A stretch of DNA of 32,061 nucleotides, from positions 1 through 32,061 of the forward strand of contig NZ_LITM01000001.1 in NCBI RefSeq assembly GCF_001275675.1, written 5' to 3'. Numbering within the stretch: the first letter of the stretch is position 1; each line of letters begins with the position of its first letter. Of the stretch, positions 16,117 through 29,722 are shown piece after piece. Made by a program: the position numbers and the translations under genes. A model generated the notes under the pieces. The model made no database searches. It saw only the letters and a program-made list of their open reading frames with translations, and was not told the DNA's origin. Origin of the DNA: Lysinibacillus sp. FJAT-14745. GTDB taxonomy: Bacteria; Bacillota; Bacilli; Bacillales_A; Planococcaceae.

Positions 16117-16662
16117 GTGAGGTTAGATGTGGGTGAGTAAGACTAGCAAATATGAAAATCCATGATACGTTACAGGCGTATGAATGCTAACAGGCTTACA
16201 GGAAGCACCTAAGTTCATTCTATAATAGATATAATTCAACATTGTAAGCTGATAACGTGGAGGGCTTACTCCCCTAAGAAACGTTGACAAGGAAAGCAAT
16301 AAAGATACTAGTTACTGTATAACTTGCCTTTATATCAGTGAAAGTGGTGGCACAGTACCGTTGAAGCGTGTAATGAACGTGGAGGGATAGCCACTAGACT
16401 AATGAAGAATTACTTAATCATGCTTGGCAAATCTTTATCGGTTAATAAGGTTCTCGTGAGACTAAAAGAGGTTCACCTTCCAAGGGAGGCACCAACTTAT
16501 TGAAACGGAAGAATTGAGATATAGAAGGTATTTTGATATCAGAAGTGTTGATGATTAATTGAATTGGATTAGTTGGAACGCCGTATGCGGTGAAAGTCGC
16601 ACGTACGGTGTGGACAGGGGGAAAAGTTGGCGATAACTTCAAAGGCTTACCTATCTGTATTA
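16117..16662 (+). mobile_element. ORF-less group II intron (ribozyme remnant)
   Basis: A 34-base domain V is unmistakable at 16578-16611. It has an eight-base lower stem ACGCCGTA/TACGGTGT with a CGC catalytic triad, a two-base bulge, an upper stem and a GAAA loop (TGCGGTGAAAGTCGCA). A domain VI-like stem (AAGTT/AACTT) follows, so the 3' end is near 16660. The 460 bases upstream are the hairpin-rich type of domains I-III and contain no reverse-transcriptase frame. GTGAG at 16117 is a candidate 5' splice site. Edges are approximate; whether it still splices is unknown. Confidence 0.8.
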
Positions 16663-20954: not shown

Positions 20955-21048
20955 CGATTAGGGAAAGAAATGTGCAGAGGCATGGGTTTGATTCTTTTGA
21001 AAAAGGAATCTACCTTCTTTCTCTAATAAGATGAAAGGAGGTTTGAAT

Positions 21049-21411
21049 ATGCCACTAATACGGAAGGCAGTAGCAATTGCTAACAACTCAGGGTTAGGTC
21101 ACTTCATGTACCAGGATCCTATTAGTAACGAACGATGCACGAGCAGGGTACGCCGAACTTCACGAAACCAGCGACGCACGAGCAGGGTACGCCGAACTTC
21201 ACGAAACCAGCGACGCACGAGCAGGGTATGTCGAACTTCGCGAAACCAACGATGCACGAGCAGGGTACGTCGAACTTCACGAAACCAGCGACGCACGAGC
21301 AGGGTACGTCGAACTTCACGAAACCAGCGACGCACGAGCAGAGTACGCCGAACTTCGCGAAACCGGCGACGCAAGAGCAGTAACTCCTTTTGGAATGACT
21401 TATTTTTTTAA
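21049..21411 (+). CDS. CotG-like spore coat protein (Ser/Arg 13-residue repeats)
   Basis: The 120-residue, very basic protein has a unique N terminus (MPLIRKAVAIANNSGLGHF). Six tandem 13-residue units of the type RRTSRVRRTSRNQ follow, then a short tail (SSNSFWNDLFF). Such Ser-rich basic repeats and the position divergent from cotH are the hallmarks of CotG, the substrate of CotH. ATG 21049 follows AAAGGAGG; the in-frame ATG at 21031 precedes that site and is not the start. Two other frames across the repeats are also open, but differences between units are mainly silent in this frame (CGC/CGT, TCA/TCG, CAG/CAA, AGG/AGA), which supports this reading. Confidence 0.82.
   Translation: MPLIRKAVAIANNSGLGHFMYQDPISNERCTSRVRRTSRNQRRTSRVRRTSRNQRRTSRVCRTSRNQRCTSRVRRTSRNQRRTSRVRRTSRNQRRTSRVRRTSRNRRRKSSNSFWNDLFF
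21135..21374 (+). repeat. 39-bp tandem repeats within the cotG-like gene
   Basis: Six units of 39 bp, each containing GCACGAGCAGGGTACG and CGAACTTCACGAAACCAG with few changes, encode the 13-residue repeats. The absence of stops makes several overlapping frames open on both strands. Confidence 0.9.
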
Positions 21412-25994: not shown

Positions 25995-26052
25995 CTATAA
26001 AAGAAAGAAAGGTTAGCATTTCGATTCCCATGGTTCTAGGGTATTTTGTATT

Positions 26053-27390
26053 TTAAATTACGCCAATTACATTTAAAAATACGATAATAATTGCAATGGG
26101 TGCTATATAGCGAAGTAAGAATAACCATAATACAAATAATTTATAGCCTTTATTTTTACTTACACCCAGTTCTTTCATTAATACATCTTTCTTCATTTTT
26201 AATGGTACGAAGATCGCTACTAATAATACACCGAGTGGCATAAGAATATTACTTACTGTAAAGTCTGCTAAATCAAAGATTGTTTTTCCAAACAATTTCA
26301 CATCGCTTAATACGCCAAATGATAGCGCCGATGGAATCCCTACAACAAAGATTAGTAATCCGACCATCAATGCCATTTTTTCGCGTTTCCCTTTACCTTT
26401 TGTCGTTAAAGAGGCAACGCTAATTTCCAACATCGAAATTGCTGATGTTATAGTTGCAAAGAAAAATAGTAACAAGAAAATGATAAAGAAGAATTTTCCA
26501 AATGCCATTTTGCTGAAAATCGCTGGTAATACTATGAATAATAGACCTGGCCCTTGAGATGGTTCCATTCCAAATGCGAATACAACCGGGAAAATAGCAA
26601 GCCCTGCAAGCAATGTAATAACAAGTGTTAAACCGACGATAGAAAATGCGGAACGCGGTAAACTTTCTTCTTTCGGTAAGTATGAGCTATACGTTACCAT
26701 TACTCCGACACCGACAGATAATGAGAAGAACGATTGTCCCATCGCATATAAAATAACTTCAGATGTTACATGTGAGAAATCAGGCTGTAAGAAGAAACGA
26801 ACTCCTTCTCCAGCTCCGTCTAATGTAAGAGCACGAATTATTAAGACAAAGAATAAAACAAATAGTGCTGGCATGAAATATTTATTTACTTTTTCAACAC
26901 CGTTTTGCACACCTTTACTTACGATAAAAATTGTAATAAGAATAAATAATAGTTGTGATCCAACAGCTAAAAATGGATTGGAAATGATTTCACCAAAAGT
27001 TGCTTCGTACGCGCCATTTCCTTCCCATAGTCTACCTGTAATTGCATTCCATAAATATAATAAAATCCAACCTCCTACAACACTGTAGAATGAAAGCAAT
27101 ATGAAACATGTTACAATCCCTAATTTACCGAGCCCCGACCATAGTGTCTTAGGAGCAATATCTCTATATGCTTCAACAACCTCTTTTTGTGTACTTCTTC
27201 CAATTACAAATTCCGCCAATAATAATGGTAAACCAATTAATAAAGTAAAACCGATGAAAATAAGGAAGAACGCACCGCCACCTCCAATACCGGCCATATA
27301 CGGGAACTTCCAAATCGCACCAAGACCTATTGCTGAACCTGCTGCGGCTAAAATGAAACCTAATTTCGATGTCCATTGCTGTGATTTCAT
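26053..27390 (-). CDS. Sodium-dependent amino-acid transporter (NSS/SNF family)
   Basis: The 445-residue integral membrane protein has about 11-12 segments and the NSS signature [17 protein letters not shown] in TM1 (18-34). Its sodium- and substrate-binding unwound region in TM6 ([15 protein letters not shown]) is also present. The length fits bacterial 11-TM members (YocR/YhdH/MhsT type) that import hydrophobic or aromatic amino acids with Na+. An AGAGGAGATAAAG ribosome site precedes the ATG. The 660-base leader on the same strand is a T-box riboswitch whose candidate specifier is UUC, so phenylalanine or aromatic amino-acid uptake is the best inference. Confidence 0.92.
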
Positions 27391-27488
27391 CTCTTTATCT
27401 CCTCTCTTTTTCTAGTTCTTTATTTATGACAATTCGGTCTTTATACTATTGTTTTATCGTGACTCCTTTCTCATACAACCACTTCCTT

Positions 27489-27520
27489 TTAACTTCTTTC
27501 AGCAGAAGGCATAATTGATA
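27489..27520 (-). repeat. Short copy of the TTAACTTCTTTCAGCA repeat
   Basis: TTAACTTCTTTCAGCAGAAG is followed directly by GGCATAATTGAT. These are the two outer words of the structure at 22427-22510 with the interior missing. It lies between the last T-box terminator and the NSS gene. Confidence 0.6.
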
Positions 27521-27843
27521 TAAAAAACGCCCCTACGAAAACGTAGGGACGATAAAAATATCGCGGTACCACCCTAGTTATGAAGATACAACAAGAGTAA
27601 GACCTAAATAAAAAACGTCCCTACGCAAATACGTAGGGACGACAAAATATCGCGGTACCACCCTAGTTATGAAGATACAACAAGAGTAAGACCCGAATAA
27701 AAAACGTCCCTACGCAAATACGTAGGGACGATAAAATATCGCGGTACCACCCTAGTTATGAAAATACAACAAGAGTAAGACCTAAATAAAAAACGCCCCT
27801 ACGTGCATACGTAGGGACGATATATATCGCGGTACCACCCTAG
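27521..27843 (-). promoter_or_regulatory. Four tandem T-box antiterminator/terminator modules
   Basis: On the minus strand the T-box AGGGTGGTACCGCG occurs four times, at plus positions 27828-27841, 27740-27753, 27651-27664 and 27562-27575 (periods 88, 89, 89). Each is followed by a terminator of the type CGTCCCTACG/CGTAGGGACG plus a T run (27788-27820, 27699-27731, 27609-27642, 27522-27552). In each, CCCTA can pair either with TAGGG of the T-box (antiterminator) or inside the terminator, so all four keep the mutually exclusive switch. The modules share about 40 further bases (GTCTTACTCTTGTTGTAT). Only one stem I precedes the array. Confidence 0.92.
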
Positions 27844-28030
27844 TTGTGAAAAAAATTCTTCACCACTTTATTTGATAACGGTATTCTCTACCGTCTTCCA
27901 CTTCCTCACAACGTGTGATTTATGAAAGATGCTCCAGGTCGAAATTCATGATCATCTATATACTGATTCGCACCAACCATCAGCTCTCTGATATAGGGAG
28001 ATTTTCACTACTTAATCCTATCATTGCCCA
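27844..28030 (-). promoter_or_regulatory. T-box stem I-III region of the NSS leader, candidate specifier UUC
   Basis: On the minus strand the leader shows the T-box landmarks AGTAGTGAAAATCTCC, AGAGAGCTGATGGTTGGTGC, then GAATTTCGACCTGGAGC. Placing the specifier by its distance from GGAGC gives TTC (Phe); the plus-strand T-box at 28890 has TTC at the identical distance. A further stem, GACGGTA/TACCGTT, precedes the first T-box. The assignment by spacing is an inference. Confidence 0.8.
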
Positions 28031-28059
28031 AATATTAATTTTCCGAATTGATAATATCA

Positions 28060-28088
28060 TTTTTATCACACATTAAAAATAGAGTCAA
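28060..28088 (-). promoter_or_regulatory. Promoter of the NSS T-box transcript
   Basis: Minus-strand TTGACT (28088-28083), a 17-bp spacer and TAAAAA (28065-28060). The -10 is weak, but position and spacing fit. Confidence 0.5.
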
Positions 28089-28159
28089 CTAAATTTTTGA
28101 ATTTTTATACGGTTTTGTTTAACTTTATTTGTACTAGATGGTATAAATTCACTTATAAA

Positions 28160-28199
28160 AAATGAGGATCACTGCTGAGCAGAATCCTCATTTTTTTAA
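28160..28199. terminator. Terminator of the small membrane-protein gene
   Basis: AAATGAGGAT pairs with ATCCTCATTT around a 16-base loop, with A and T runs on both sides, so it is usable on either strand. Confidence 0.8.
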
Positions 28200-28708
28200 A
28201 AATTAATAGGGCTTAGCTTAATGAAAATACTACCAAATAAAATCTTTATTAGGCCATCTATTACAAAAAAGACGTCTAGACTTACGTTAGTAATGACTAA
28301 TCCTATAAATGCATTGATTATTAAAGCGATTGATAGAAAAAGCATTAATTTCCCATGCACCGGAATAAAAGGTAAGAAATGAACACCGACAGCTAAAATA
28401 ATTAATAGCCAGCAAGTTCTATAATCATCGGCAAAAAATTGAAAACTGACAAAAACTAAAATAGCTAATAAAAAAATTGAGAAATTTGACCACTTTTTTT
28501 GTTCCTGTGTTCCAGGACCGACTGCTAATTTCTCCCGGGTTTTAGGGCTTAATTGCCAAATCATACCTAGTACATAAACGATGGCAAAAGGCCAAATATT
28601 TGGATAGCCGTTATATTTTATTAAAAGTAAGAACATTGCTATGCCAGCAATGATTAGCCAAATCCCATTAATCTTTTGTCTAGGATATCTGTAGGTTTGT
28701 GTTTCCAT
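28196..28708 (-). CDS. Small multi-pass membrane protein of unknown function
   Basis: The 170 residues contain about five hydrophobic segments (near 15-31, 38-52, 75-92, 97-113 and 120-165), with a polar loop KTREKLAVGPGTQEQKKW at 56-73. The family was not recognised. The last codons reach into the terminator stem. A GGATGGAGA-like site lies before the ATG. It is transcribed toward the NSS T-box region but ends in its own terminator, so it is monocistronic. Confidence 0.7.
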   Translation of the reverse strand: METQTYRYPRQKINGIWLIIAGIAMFLLLIKYNGYPNIWPFAIVYVLGMIWQLSPKTREKLAVGPGTQEQKKWSNFSIFLLAILVFVSFQFFADDYRTCWLLIILAVGVHFLPFIPVHGKLMLFLSIALIINAFIGLVITNVSLDVFFVIDGLIKILFGSIFIKLSPINF

Positions 28709-28891: not shown

Positions 28892-29207
28892 CAAGATTTG
28901 CATAACGAAAAATTGTTGATAACAATTTGGAGTATAAGAGTAAAAGTGTTGAAGAGAACTAGTAGTTTTAATGGAACTTACAGAAAGTGGCCGGGTGATG
29001 AGAGGCGCAAGGAAAGTTAAAATGAATTCATCTTGGAGCTGCGTACCGAACTTTAGTAGGCTACGACGGGTTTGCATCCGTAATCAATGCAGAGGTATCG
29101 CTTTTAGCCGTACCTATTGAGAAGAGTTATGTGAGTAGCTCTTAAATTAAGGTGGTAACACGTTCATACACGTCCTTTAGGTTGATTCCTAAAGGGCGTT
29201 TTTTTTA
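28892..29207 (+). promoter_or_regulatory. Complete T-box riboswitch, candidate specifier UUC
   Basis: The leader has stem I elements (AGAAAGTGGCCGGGTGATGAG, GCGCAAGG) and a specifier region ATGAATTCATCTTGGAGC with TTC five bases before GGAGC. A stem III (AAGAGTTA..AGCTCTT) leads to the T-box AAGGTGGTAACACG at 29149. The terminator CCTTTAGG/CCTAAAGG with eight T follows (29174-29206). AAGG of the T-box can pair with CCTTT, the expected antiterminator. The next gene starts 200 bases later, after repeat DNA, so the original target may have been displaced. Ile (ATC) is the alternative specifier. Confidence 0.88.
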
Positions 29208-29210
29208 TCT

Positions 29211-29365
29211 TCCTTCAGCAGAAGCGGGTGGTAAGATGAATGCGATGTGATTCTTTATATAGAGAAGCTCAGTCTAAGAACGTCACGTCCTGTGGCAATT
29301 TATCTGTAACGAAAGCGAAGCGACAGCTACAATTACGCCAAGGCAAAATTGATTTTTACTCTTAT
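29211..29365 (+). repeat. Dispersed repeat between the T-box and the S4 gene
   Basis: It starts TTCCTTCAGCAGAAGCGGG and contains CTGTAACGAAAGCGAAGCGACAG, which recurs at 9659-9681, and a GGCAAAATTGAT end like the GGCATAATTGAT at 22497 and 27508. It separates the T-box terminator from the downstream gene. Confidence 0.55.
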
Positions 29366-29407
29366 AGAACTTGCAATATTAATTCAATATTTAAGGAGTT
29401 GTATTGT

Positions 29408-29722
29408 ATGTTTTTAAAACTGGAAGAACAATTAGAGATGATTCAAAAGGGTGTAGGTAAGATCGTTAATGAAGGAGAGGTTTTGCCTGATAACATTCCC
29501 ACCATGTTAATAGAAATAGGAAAAGAATCTGTACTAGATATTATTCCATCATTAATTACTGAAGGATATATTAAAAGTAAAAGTGAATTTATGCGATTAA
29601 TGAAACAAAATGGTGTTTCTTTAAATGGGGAAAAACTTGTAGAAGATAATACTGACATAATATTAATGAATGATGAGGTTTTACAAATTGGGAAGAAACA
29701 ATTTATACGGTTTATAAAATAA
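29408..29722 (+). CDS. Free-standing S4 domain protein resembling the C terminus of tyrosyl-tRNA synthetase
   Basis: The 104 residues align in pattern with the end of bacterial TyrRS (TyrZ-like): a linker (NEGEVLPDNIPTMLIEI), then the S4 RNA-binding fold (EGYIKSKSEFMRLMKQNGVS, LNGEKL and LQIGKKQFIRF, about 50-103). The catalytic Rossmann domain and KMSKS loop are absent. ATG 29408 has its own AAGGAG site nine bases upstream, so it is expressed as a small protein and not merely a cut fragment. A longer frame from 29240 runs through repeat DNA and is rejected. The S4 fold binds structured RNA; a role in translation or regulation is inferred, not shown. Confidence 0.75.
   Translation: MFLKLEEQLEMIQKGVGKIVNEGEVLPDNIPTMLIEIGKESVLDIIPSLITEGYIKSKSEFMRLMKQNGVSLNGEKLVEDNTDIILMNDEVLQIGKKQFIRFIK

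Follow-up and report, generated by a model that had tools for sequence, protein, structure and literature searches.

T-box riboswitches with duplicated terminator-antiterminator elements were reportedly described by Vitreschak et al. in 2008 (RNA 14:717). These leaders reportedly share with the one treated here a single specifier domain and more than one terminator/antiterminator unit; the present leader differs in its four intact copies, with two to four across species, and in a predicted bridge between modules. Partially tandem T-boxes, an element of the same kind, are mentioned in a 2020 review that calls their modes of action unknown, in a passage that gives neither an example nor a mechanism. 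Complete tandem T-boxes (PMC12452182), a type also seen in the leaders of Brevibacillus NSS transporter genes, likewise make several serial decisions, but in the accessible part of that source each decision has its own stem I, whereas in the present leader only the first module has one; complete units are also treated in the accessible text of PMC9481103. In the Bacillus cereus group, Wels et al. (2008, PMC2494555) reported a phenylalanine T-box ahead of an NSS gene, with the same specificity and transporter family as here; the accessible part of that paper makes no mention of repeated modules. No title or abstract among the literature matches listed mentions more than two modules or an inter-module bridge, which is weak evidence of absence given the poor coverage of subscription papers. 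An earlier note on this DNA had implied a novelty that is in fact smaller, as partially tandem T-boxes are in print and two-module leaders occur elsewhere in the phylum. The class is already known; what may be new is the predicted bridge, through which the decision of module 1 would be passed to module 2.

The leader lies on the minus strand of the window, a stretch of 32,061 nucleotides from Lysinibacillus sp. FJAT-14745. In a covariance-model search of that strand, a check the earlier note had suggested, RF00230 (Rfam) covers 27810-28033 (-) over its full model length, from stem I to the antiterminator of module 1, with 150.4 bits against a gathering score of 93, which identifies this segment as a T-box riboswitch. 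The specifier at 27941-27943 (-), read by eye and from the Rfam alignment, is UUC, a phenylalanine codon that suits an NSS transporter gene; as read by eye, it is unchanged across the leaders of the NSS relatives while the preceding base varies. Stem III of module 1 (27843-27866, -) folds at -6.6 kcal/mol. A possible promoter upstream (TTGACT and AAAAAT at a spacing of 18, 9/12, 28059-28088, -) is no better than chance, with one promoter-like site found and a shuffle mean of 3.0. No tRNA-Phe gene was found in the window.

Behind the single stem I, four decision modules follow one another on the minus strand. Tandem Repeats Finder reports an 89-base period at 27520-27852 (3.8 copies, 92% matches), and the T-box core GGGTGG starts at 27840, 27752, 27663 and 27574, giving spacings of 88, 89 and 89, in agreement with a previously proposed period of 88-89 bp. 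Module 1 (27788-27842) comprises a T-box/antiterminator, terminator T1 and a U-tract, and is followed by module 2 (27699-27754), which has no stem I, module 3 (27610-27665) and module 4 (27522-27576). Their terminator-like hairpins with U-tracts lie at 27819-27794 (T1), 27730-27705 (T2), 27641-27616 (T3) and 27551-27528 (T4); five terminator-like sites occur in 27380-28240 compared with a shuffle mean of 0.3, these four in phase and the fifth on the opposite strand. By folding, a UGGN bulge and an antiterminator that excludes the terminator are present in 4/4 modules. The antiterminators M1-M4, forced with the tRNA bulge open, have predicted energies of -7.5, -8.2, -8.2 and -9.7 kcal/mol, and the terminators T1-T4 of -18.5, -19.4, -19.4 and -17.6 kcal/mol. 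The modules are separated by linkers at 27755-27787 (linker 1, with a nested hairpin, z -3.63), 27666-27698 (linker 2, z -2.93) and 27577-27609 (linker 3, z -2.93), each complementary to the T-box of the module that follows. RF00230, Tandem Repeats Finder and folding together bear out the proposal that one specifier is followed by four modules, each of them intact, and an NSS transporter, and the locus is confirmed as a phenylalanine T-box with a single stem I and four discriminator modules ahead of this gene.

No stem I was found in modules 2-4, where RF00230 scores reach just 30.9 bits (over model positions 183-216) and 33.6 bits, and there is no room for one, since a period of 88-89 nt compares with a model of 219 positions. 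Assignment as a complete tandem T-box was rejected on these scores. With several antiterminator/terminator units following a single stem I, the leader belongs to the T-boxes with duplicated terminator-antiterminator elements, as that class is reportedly defined.

The regulated gene (26053-27390, -) encodes an NSS-family sodium-dependent transporter of 445 aa (Pfam SNF, 5.2e-54). Its closest solved chain is 4us3 (E 1.6e-110), presumably MhsT, a hydrophobic amino acid transporter. When ten loci were compared with the window (pieces longer than 150 bases, E at most 1e-10), DNA similarity began at about 28068-28114 and ended at about 26036-26054. Because it stops at both edges, the leader and transporter gene look like one unit placed at varied sites, and 26036-28108 resembles a regulatory cassette whose two parts travel together. 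In the flanking sequence compared, no match longer than 150 bases was observed among the ten loci, even between Lysinibacillus species. The Paenibacillus loci share 94-95% protein identity with the window, a value that points to horizontal transfer.

Several other features of the window were observed. A second T-box leader at 28940-29180 (+) scores 107.3 bits with RF00230, and its specifier by eye is also UUC. In the ORF that follows it (29240-29722, +), the match to tyrosyl-tRNA synthetase is confined to the C-terminal region (TIGR00234 positions 306-403) and, at 29.4 bits, falls below the cut-off. The leader looks intact, and the ORF is apparently what remains of a tyrS gene. An ORF of 126 aa at 21031-21411 (+) consists mostly of a 13-residue repeat rich in Arg and Ser (period 39 bases, 6.4 copies, 92% matches) and has no Pfam match. 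A group II intron domain match at 16576-16660 (+), with 62.7 bits, is possibly a remnant; no intron protein was recognised among the listed nearby ORFs of at least 100 aa, one of which was profile-searched.

Relatives of the transporter were taken as the best 80 of 343 loci, and among these all eight with at least 86% identity bear several modules. Four modules are found in the window leader, in G001 and in Lysinibacillus xylanilyticus, and three plus a decayed one in Lysinibacillus KCTC 33748 and L. sphaericus SDF0037; Lysinibacillus BPa_S21 has four plus a decayed one, with a longer gap ahead of the fourth. Paenibacillus NAIST15-1, P. alvei and Priestia taiwanensis have three modules, and Paenibacillus albiflavus, G392 (module 1 antiterminator, -9.6 kcal/mol) and Bacillus infantis (66% identity) have two. 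These 12 leaders span Lysinibacillus, Paenibacillus, Priestia, Bacillus and one further genus and together hold 40 modules. Folding finds 37 of these intact, with two to four intact modules per leader; four is the maximum among the leaders examined. At locus L036, an insertion with an inverted repeat, seen by eye at about 2613-2757, lies between modules 3 and 4, so that the spacing is 222 rather than 89; the terminator of a fifth module is missing. Within the genus a close ortholog (93-100%) is present in 6/32 genomes and the array in exactly those six; within the family the array occurs in 6/261 genomes, all six Lysinibacillus. The five Brevibacillus loci (L040-L044) all have two complete T-boxes instead. 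By motif search, the T-box core was found in 14 of the best 80 of 343 loci and not in the other 66, a search that overlooks at least one T-box (L046); the Rfam scan covered 17/80 of these loci.

The earlier note had raised a recent slippage or recombination expansion as a possible origin of the array and had argued against sequencing error. Loops and linkers differ among the four window copies, and the nearest module to window module 4 is the fourth one of another species (G001, distance 0.023), which together argue against an assembly artefact. A recent expansion in one strain is contradicted, as comparison of copy number in related genomes found no single-module leader among the 12, and the last module is common to another species. 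The last copy probably predates the split between the species of the window and G001, with some homogenisation since. Slippage and recombination would account for at most a part of the pattern, namely that copies are gained, lost and homogenised.

A rival idea is that the array is neutral, with slippage and recombination making and eroding modules, module 1 alone mattering and the extra copies being tolerated. Consistent with this, copy number varies, 3/12 leaders carry a decayed extra copy, which in each case is the last of its array, and in L. xylanilyticus modules 2 and 3 are each other's nearest. At least two intact modules are nonetheless kept in 12/12 leaders examined. Extra modules show a mean distance of 0.096 to others of their own leader and of 0.138 to those of different leaders. 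Conservation was measured on 35 modules of 11 leaders (the 40 modules minus the three decayed and the two of B. infantis), 24 of them extra. Among these 24, variable columns number 0/15 in the core and 0/9 in the shared arm, beside 17/26 in the linker before the core; the module finder tolerated up to three core mismatches, so the invariance of the core was not imposed by the search. In the helices tested (small hairpin, antiterminator, terminator and linker), no pair changed on both sides relative to the commonest type, and the T-box strand is invariant. The invariance of functional columns beside variable linkers speaks against neutrality, as does the finding that in other families two-module leaders precede other genes, and an extra working terminator would be unlikely to be neutral for the gene. 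Neutrality of the extra copies is on this evidence quite improbable.

Multi-module leaders were also sought more widely. A motif pair with a gap of 58-88 bases was found in 8/398 genomes of a class sample, and a pair of the narrow motif GGTGGNACCGCG in 9/398 genomes of a phylum sample, while a wider motif found leaders with at least two modules in 16/398 genomes of the latter, the own genome being counted each time; reversed-pattern controls gave 0 matches for the narrow-pattern searches and 3 for the wider pattern. In the own genome, the exact motif GGTGGNACCGCG occurs in just 12/30 T-box loci. All specifiers read with this motif were Phe, Tyr or Trp. A rule that such leaders are aromatic only was dropped, since the wider motif adds Ser and Arg leaders: by eye, the specifiers of 19 leaders of the phylum sample are Phe (5), Tyr (6), Trp (3), Ser (4) and Arg (1), so that 14/19 are aromatic. 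Ten leaders from the phylum were folded, among which the contig end truncates module 2 of L197, module 2 of L201 is without a U-run and that of L205 is weak (-8.5). Three modules are present in one leader of G990, and no four-module leader was found outside the NSS leaders among the phylum and family matches listed. In the family of G539 (41 genomes), 11 genomes carry the motif pair, in 14 leaders, 13 of which precede an apparent DAHP synthase or chorismate mutase, as named from the translations. Seven of the 14, DAHP synthase leaders (L143, L145, L146, L180, L183, L185, L186), appear on reading to have two complete Tyr T-boxes and one extra module, and are read as three decisions of mixed type; Rfam confirms the two complete T-boxes in both searched genomes of these seven.

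From the observed architecture and conservation, and from the predicted energies, we infer as a tentative best explanation that the leader functions in the cell as a T-box responding to tRNA-Phe, in which a single reading domain serves four working discriminators arranged in series, the decision being relayed by bridges. More specifically, the tRNA reading of module 1 may be copied along the terminators in an RNA relay, where an opened gate would open the next and a leaked gate would leave the next armed; this is rather doubtful. When phenylalanine is replete, M1 would fold into T1, and polymerases that leaked through would meet T2, T3 and T4, so that leakage would fall multiplicatively. During phenylalanine starvation, uncharged tRNA-Phe on stem I would hold M1 in the antiterminator form. 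Left free, the T1 3' arm would then pair with the emerging 5' arm of M2, with the linker pairing with the T-box of M2 inside. This bridge hairpin would pre-empt T2, and should not itself terminate, as 13-15 nt lie between the end of its arm and the next U-tract. The 3' arm of T2, now free, would act likewise on M3, and so onward, such that one tRNA would open all gates and leaks would be re-tested at each following gate.

Folding of the window leader is consistent with these steps. With M1 locked, modelled in RNAfold by leaving the antiterminator strand out of the fold, a long bridge hairpin is predicted, in which the 3' arm of T1 pairs with the 5' arm of M2 and encloses the pairing of linker and M2 T-box. 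Its energy once the M2 arm has emerged is -34.6 kcal/mol, and when T2 is complete the bridge is still the minimum (-40.9 vs -36.5 kcal/mol for T2 plus the separately folded rest). In the three window steps, 15, 15 and 13 bases separate the end of the bridge arm from the next U-tract, and short added pairings in the fold, which might affect termination, end 0-9 nt before it. The M3 to M4 step is a near tie, with the bridge in three fold set-ups and the terminator in one, depending on where the locked part is cut. Minimum-energy folding of this kind leaves out kinetics, tRNA and proteins.

The same prediction was made for 22 module pairs from 10 NSS leaders, one pair being skipped. With antiterminator i locked, the bridge forms at arm emergence in 21/22 pairs and is the final minimum in 18/22, the next terminator being the final minimum in 4/22; once terminator i has formed, so does the next one in 22/22. 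With shuffled linkers the bridge wins 51% of the time on average, as against the native 18/22, and with weaker energies (native mean z -2.68). Since so many bridges form even with shuffled linkers, bridging would be partly an automatic by-product of repeated arms. The linker:T-box hairpin also beats shuffled linkers (mean z -2.71 over 23 NSS linkers), a mean that includes two poor samples, the third linkers of L032 (before a decayed module, z -0.95) and L111 (an overlong cut, z -1.22). The diverged linkers of Priestia taiwanensis are still complementary (z -3.82 and -2.01).

A second set of 30 leaders, including the distant NSS leaders L149 and L049, gave a bridge at emergence in 24/28 pairs counted (three skipped) and as the final minimum in just 7/28. 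Linkers complementary to the T-box were rejected as a general feature, as those of other leaders are near random (mean z -0.38, 4 below -1.645; 34 linkers from 33 leaders that include two distant NSS leaders). In set B (24 pairs), terminator arms cross-pair slightly better than permuted ones, with 29/5000 permutations as low, a result given no weight because composition is uncontrolled and L149 and L049 are among the strongest. Because the second set mostly loses the final bridge and its linkers are not special, the relay is best supported, as a prediction, in the close NSS family, and is unproven elsewhere.

The main rival to the relay is hand-over of the tRNA 3' end. Here, the same uncharged tRNA-Phe would stay bound at stem I, and refolding of M1 into T1 once the polymerase had passed would free the tRNA 3' end for M2, M3 and M4 in turn, so that the aminoacyl end would be read afresh at every module, making a serial proofreading gate. 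Each extra module retains a complete UGGU bulge, and in most a small hairpin precedes the T-box; T1 exceeds the bare antiterminator in stability by about 11 kcal/mol; and the tethered 3' end has, by a worm-like-chain estimate, an effective concentration of 0.72 mM for 60 nt and 0.13 mM for 180 nt. For glyQS, the accessible part of PMC6197855 gives a life of more than 24 s for fully bound tRNA and about 4 s for anticodon-only binding, with 3'-end docking at more than 10 per s, a rate that would favour hand-over. At the polymerase speed of 40-50 nt/s given there, each module takes about 2 s, so one tRNA could outlast the array. The same source describes release of the 3' end from the antiterminator as very slow, which counts against hand-over when compared with about 2 s per module, and in the locked-M1 fold the linker is predicted to occlude the T-box of M2. 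Hand-over appears unlikely on these grounds.

The earlier note had proposed that read-through needs either hand-over or several uncharged tRNAs, in the latter case with each extra module taking its own from solution to give a steep threshold. The need for several tRNAs is unproven, as folding predicts that the decision is passed without further tRNA. Complete tandem T-boxes are expected to use two tRNAs in the accessible part of a 2025 survey (PMC12452182), and serial independent draws would steepen the response. Modules 2-4 are however without stem I, and any free tRNA, assumed to be at about 1 uM in the cell in the accessible part of PMC6197855, would have to compete with a tethered one at about 0.1-0.7 mM, which makes a second free tRNA an unlikely competitor. 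Independent tRNAs are very improbable.

A toy model illustrates how the rivals would differ, with read-through (p=0.8) and leak (q=0.1) both assumed. Under the relay, OFF expression falls as q^n and ON is kept. Hand-over likewise lets OFF fall as q^n, but ON, at first 0.8, is down to 0.41 with four modules. Independent tRNAs make the response steeper. If the tRNA is stuck on module 1, OFF is tight and ON drops from 0.8 to 0.001. This last case corresponds to the proposal that modules 2-4 are back-up terminators only, the gene being nearly silent, with tRNA staying on M1 and T2-T4 passed by leakage. Strong terminators, a single stem I and the tight OFF state of the model would fit such a role, but given the loss of ON with n, under the assumed values, it is difficult to see why selection would keep T-boxes intact in the extra modules, and this proposal is decidedly improbable.

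The NSS leaders offer a natural series of two, three and four intact modules with the same kind of reading domain and gene, which makes testable whether one tRNA opens several gates and what each added gate buys. If the relay is true, this riboswitch would pass a decision on by RNA structure, with no need to bind its ligand again, transmitting a state along the transcript, and it may provide a design principle for low-leak synthetic switches.
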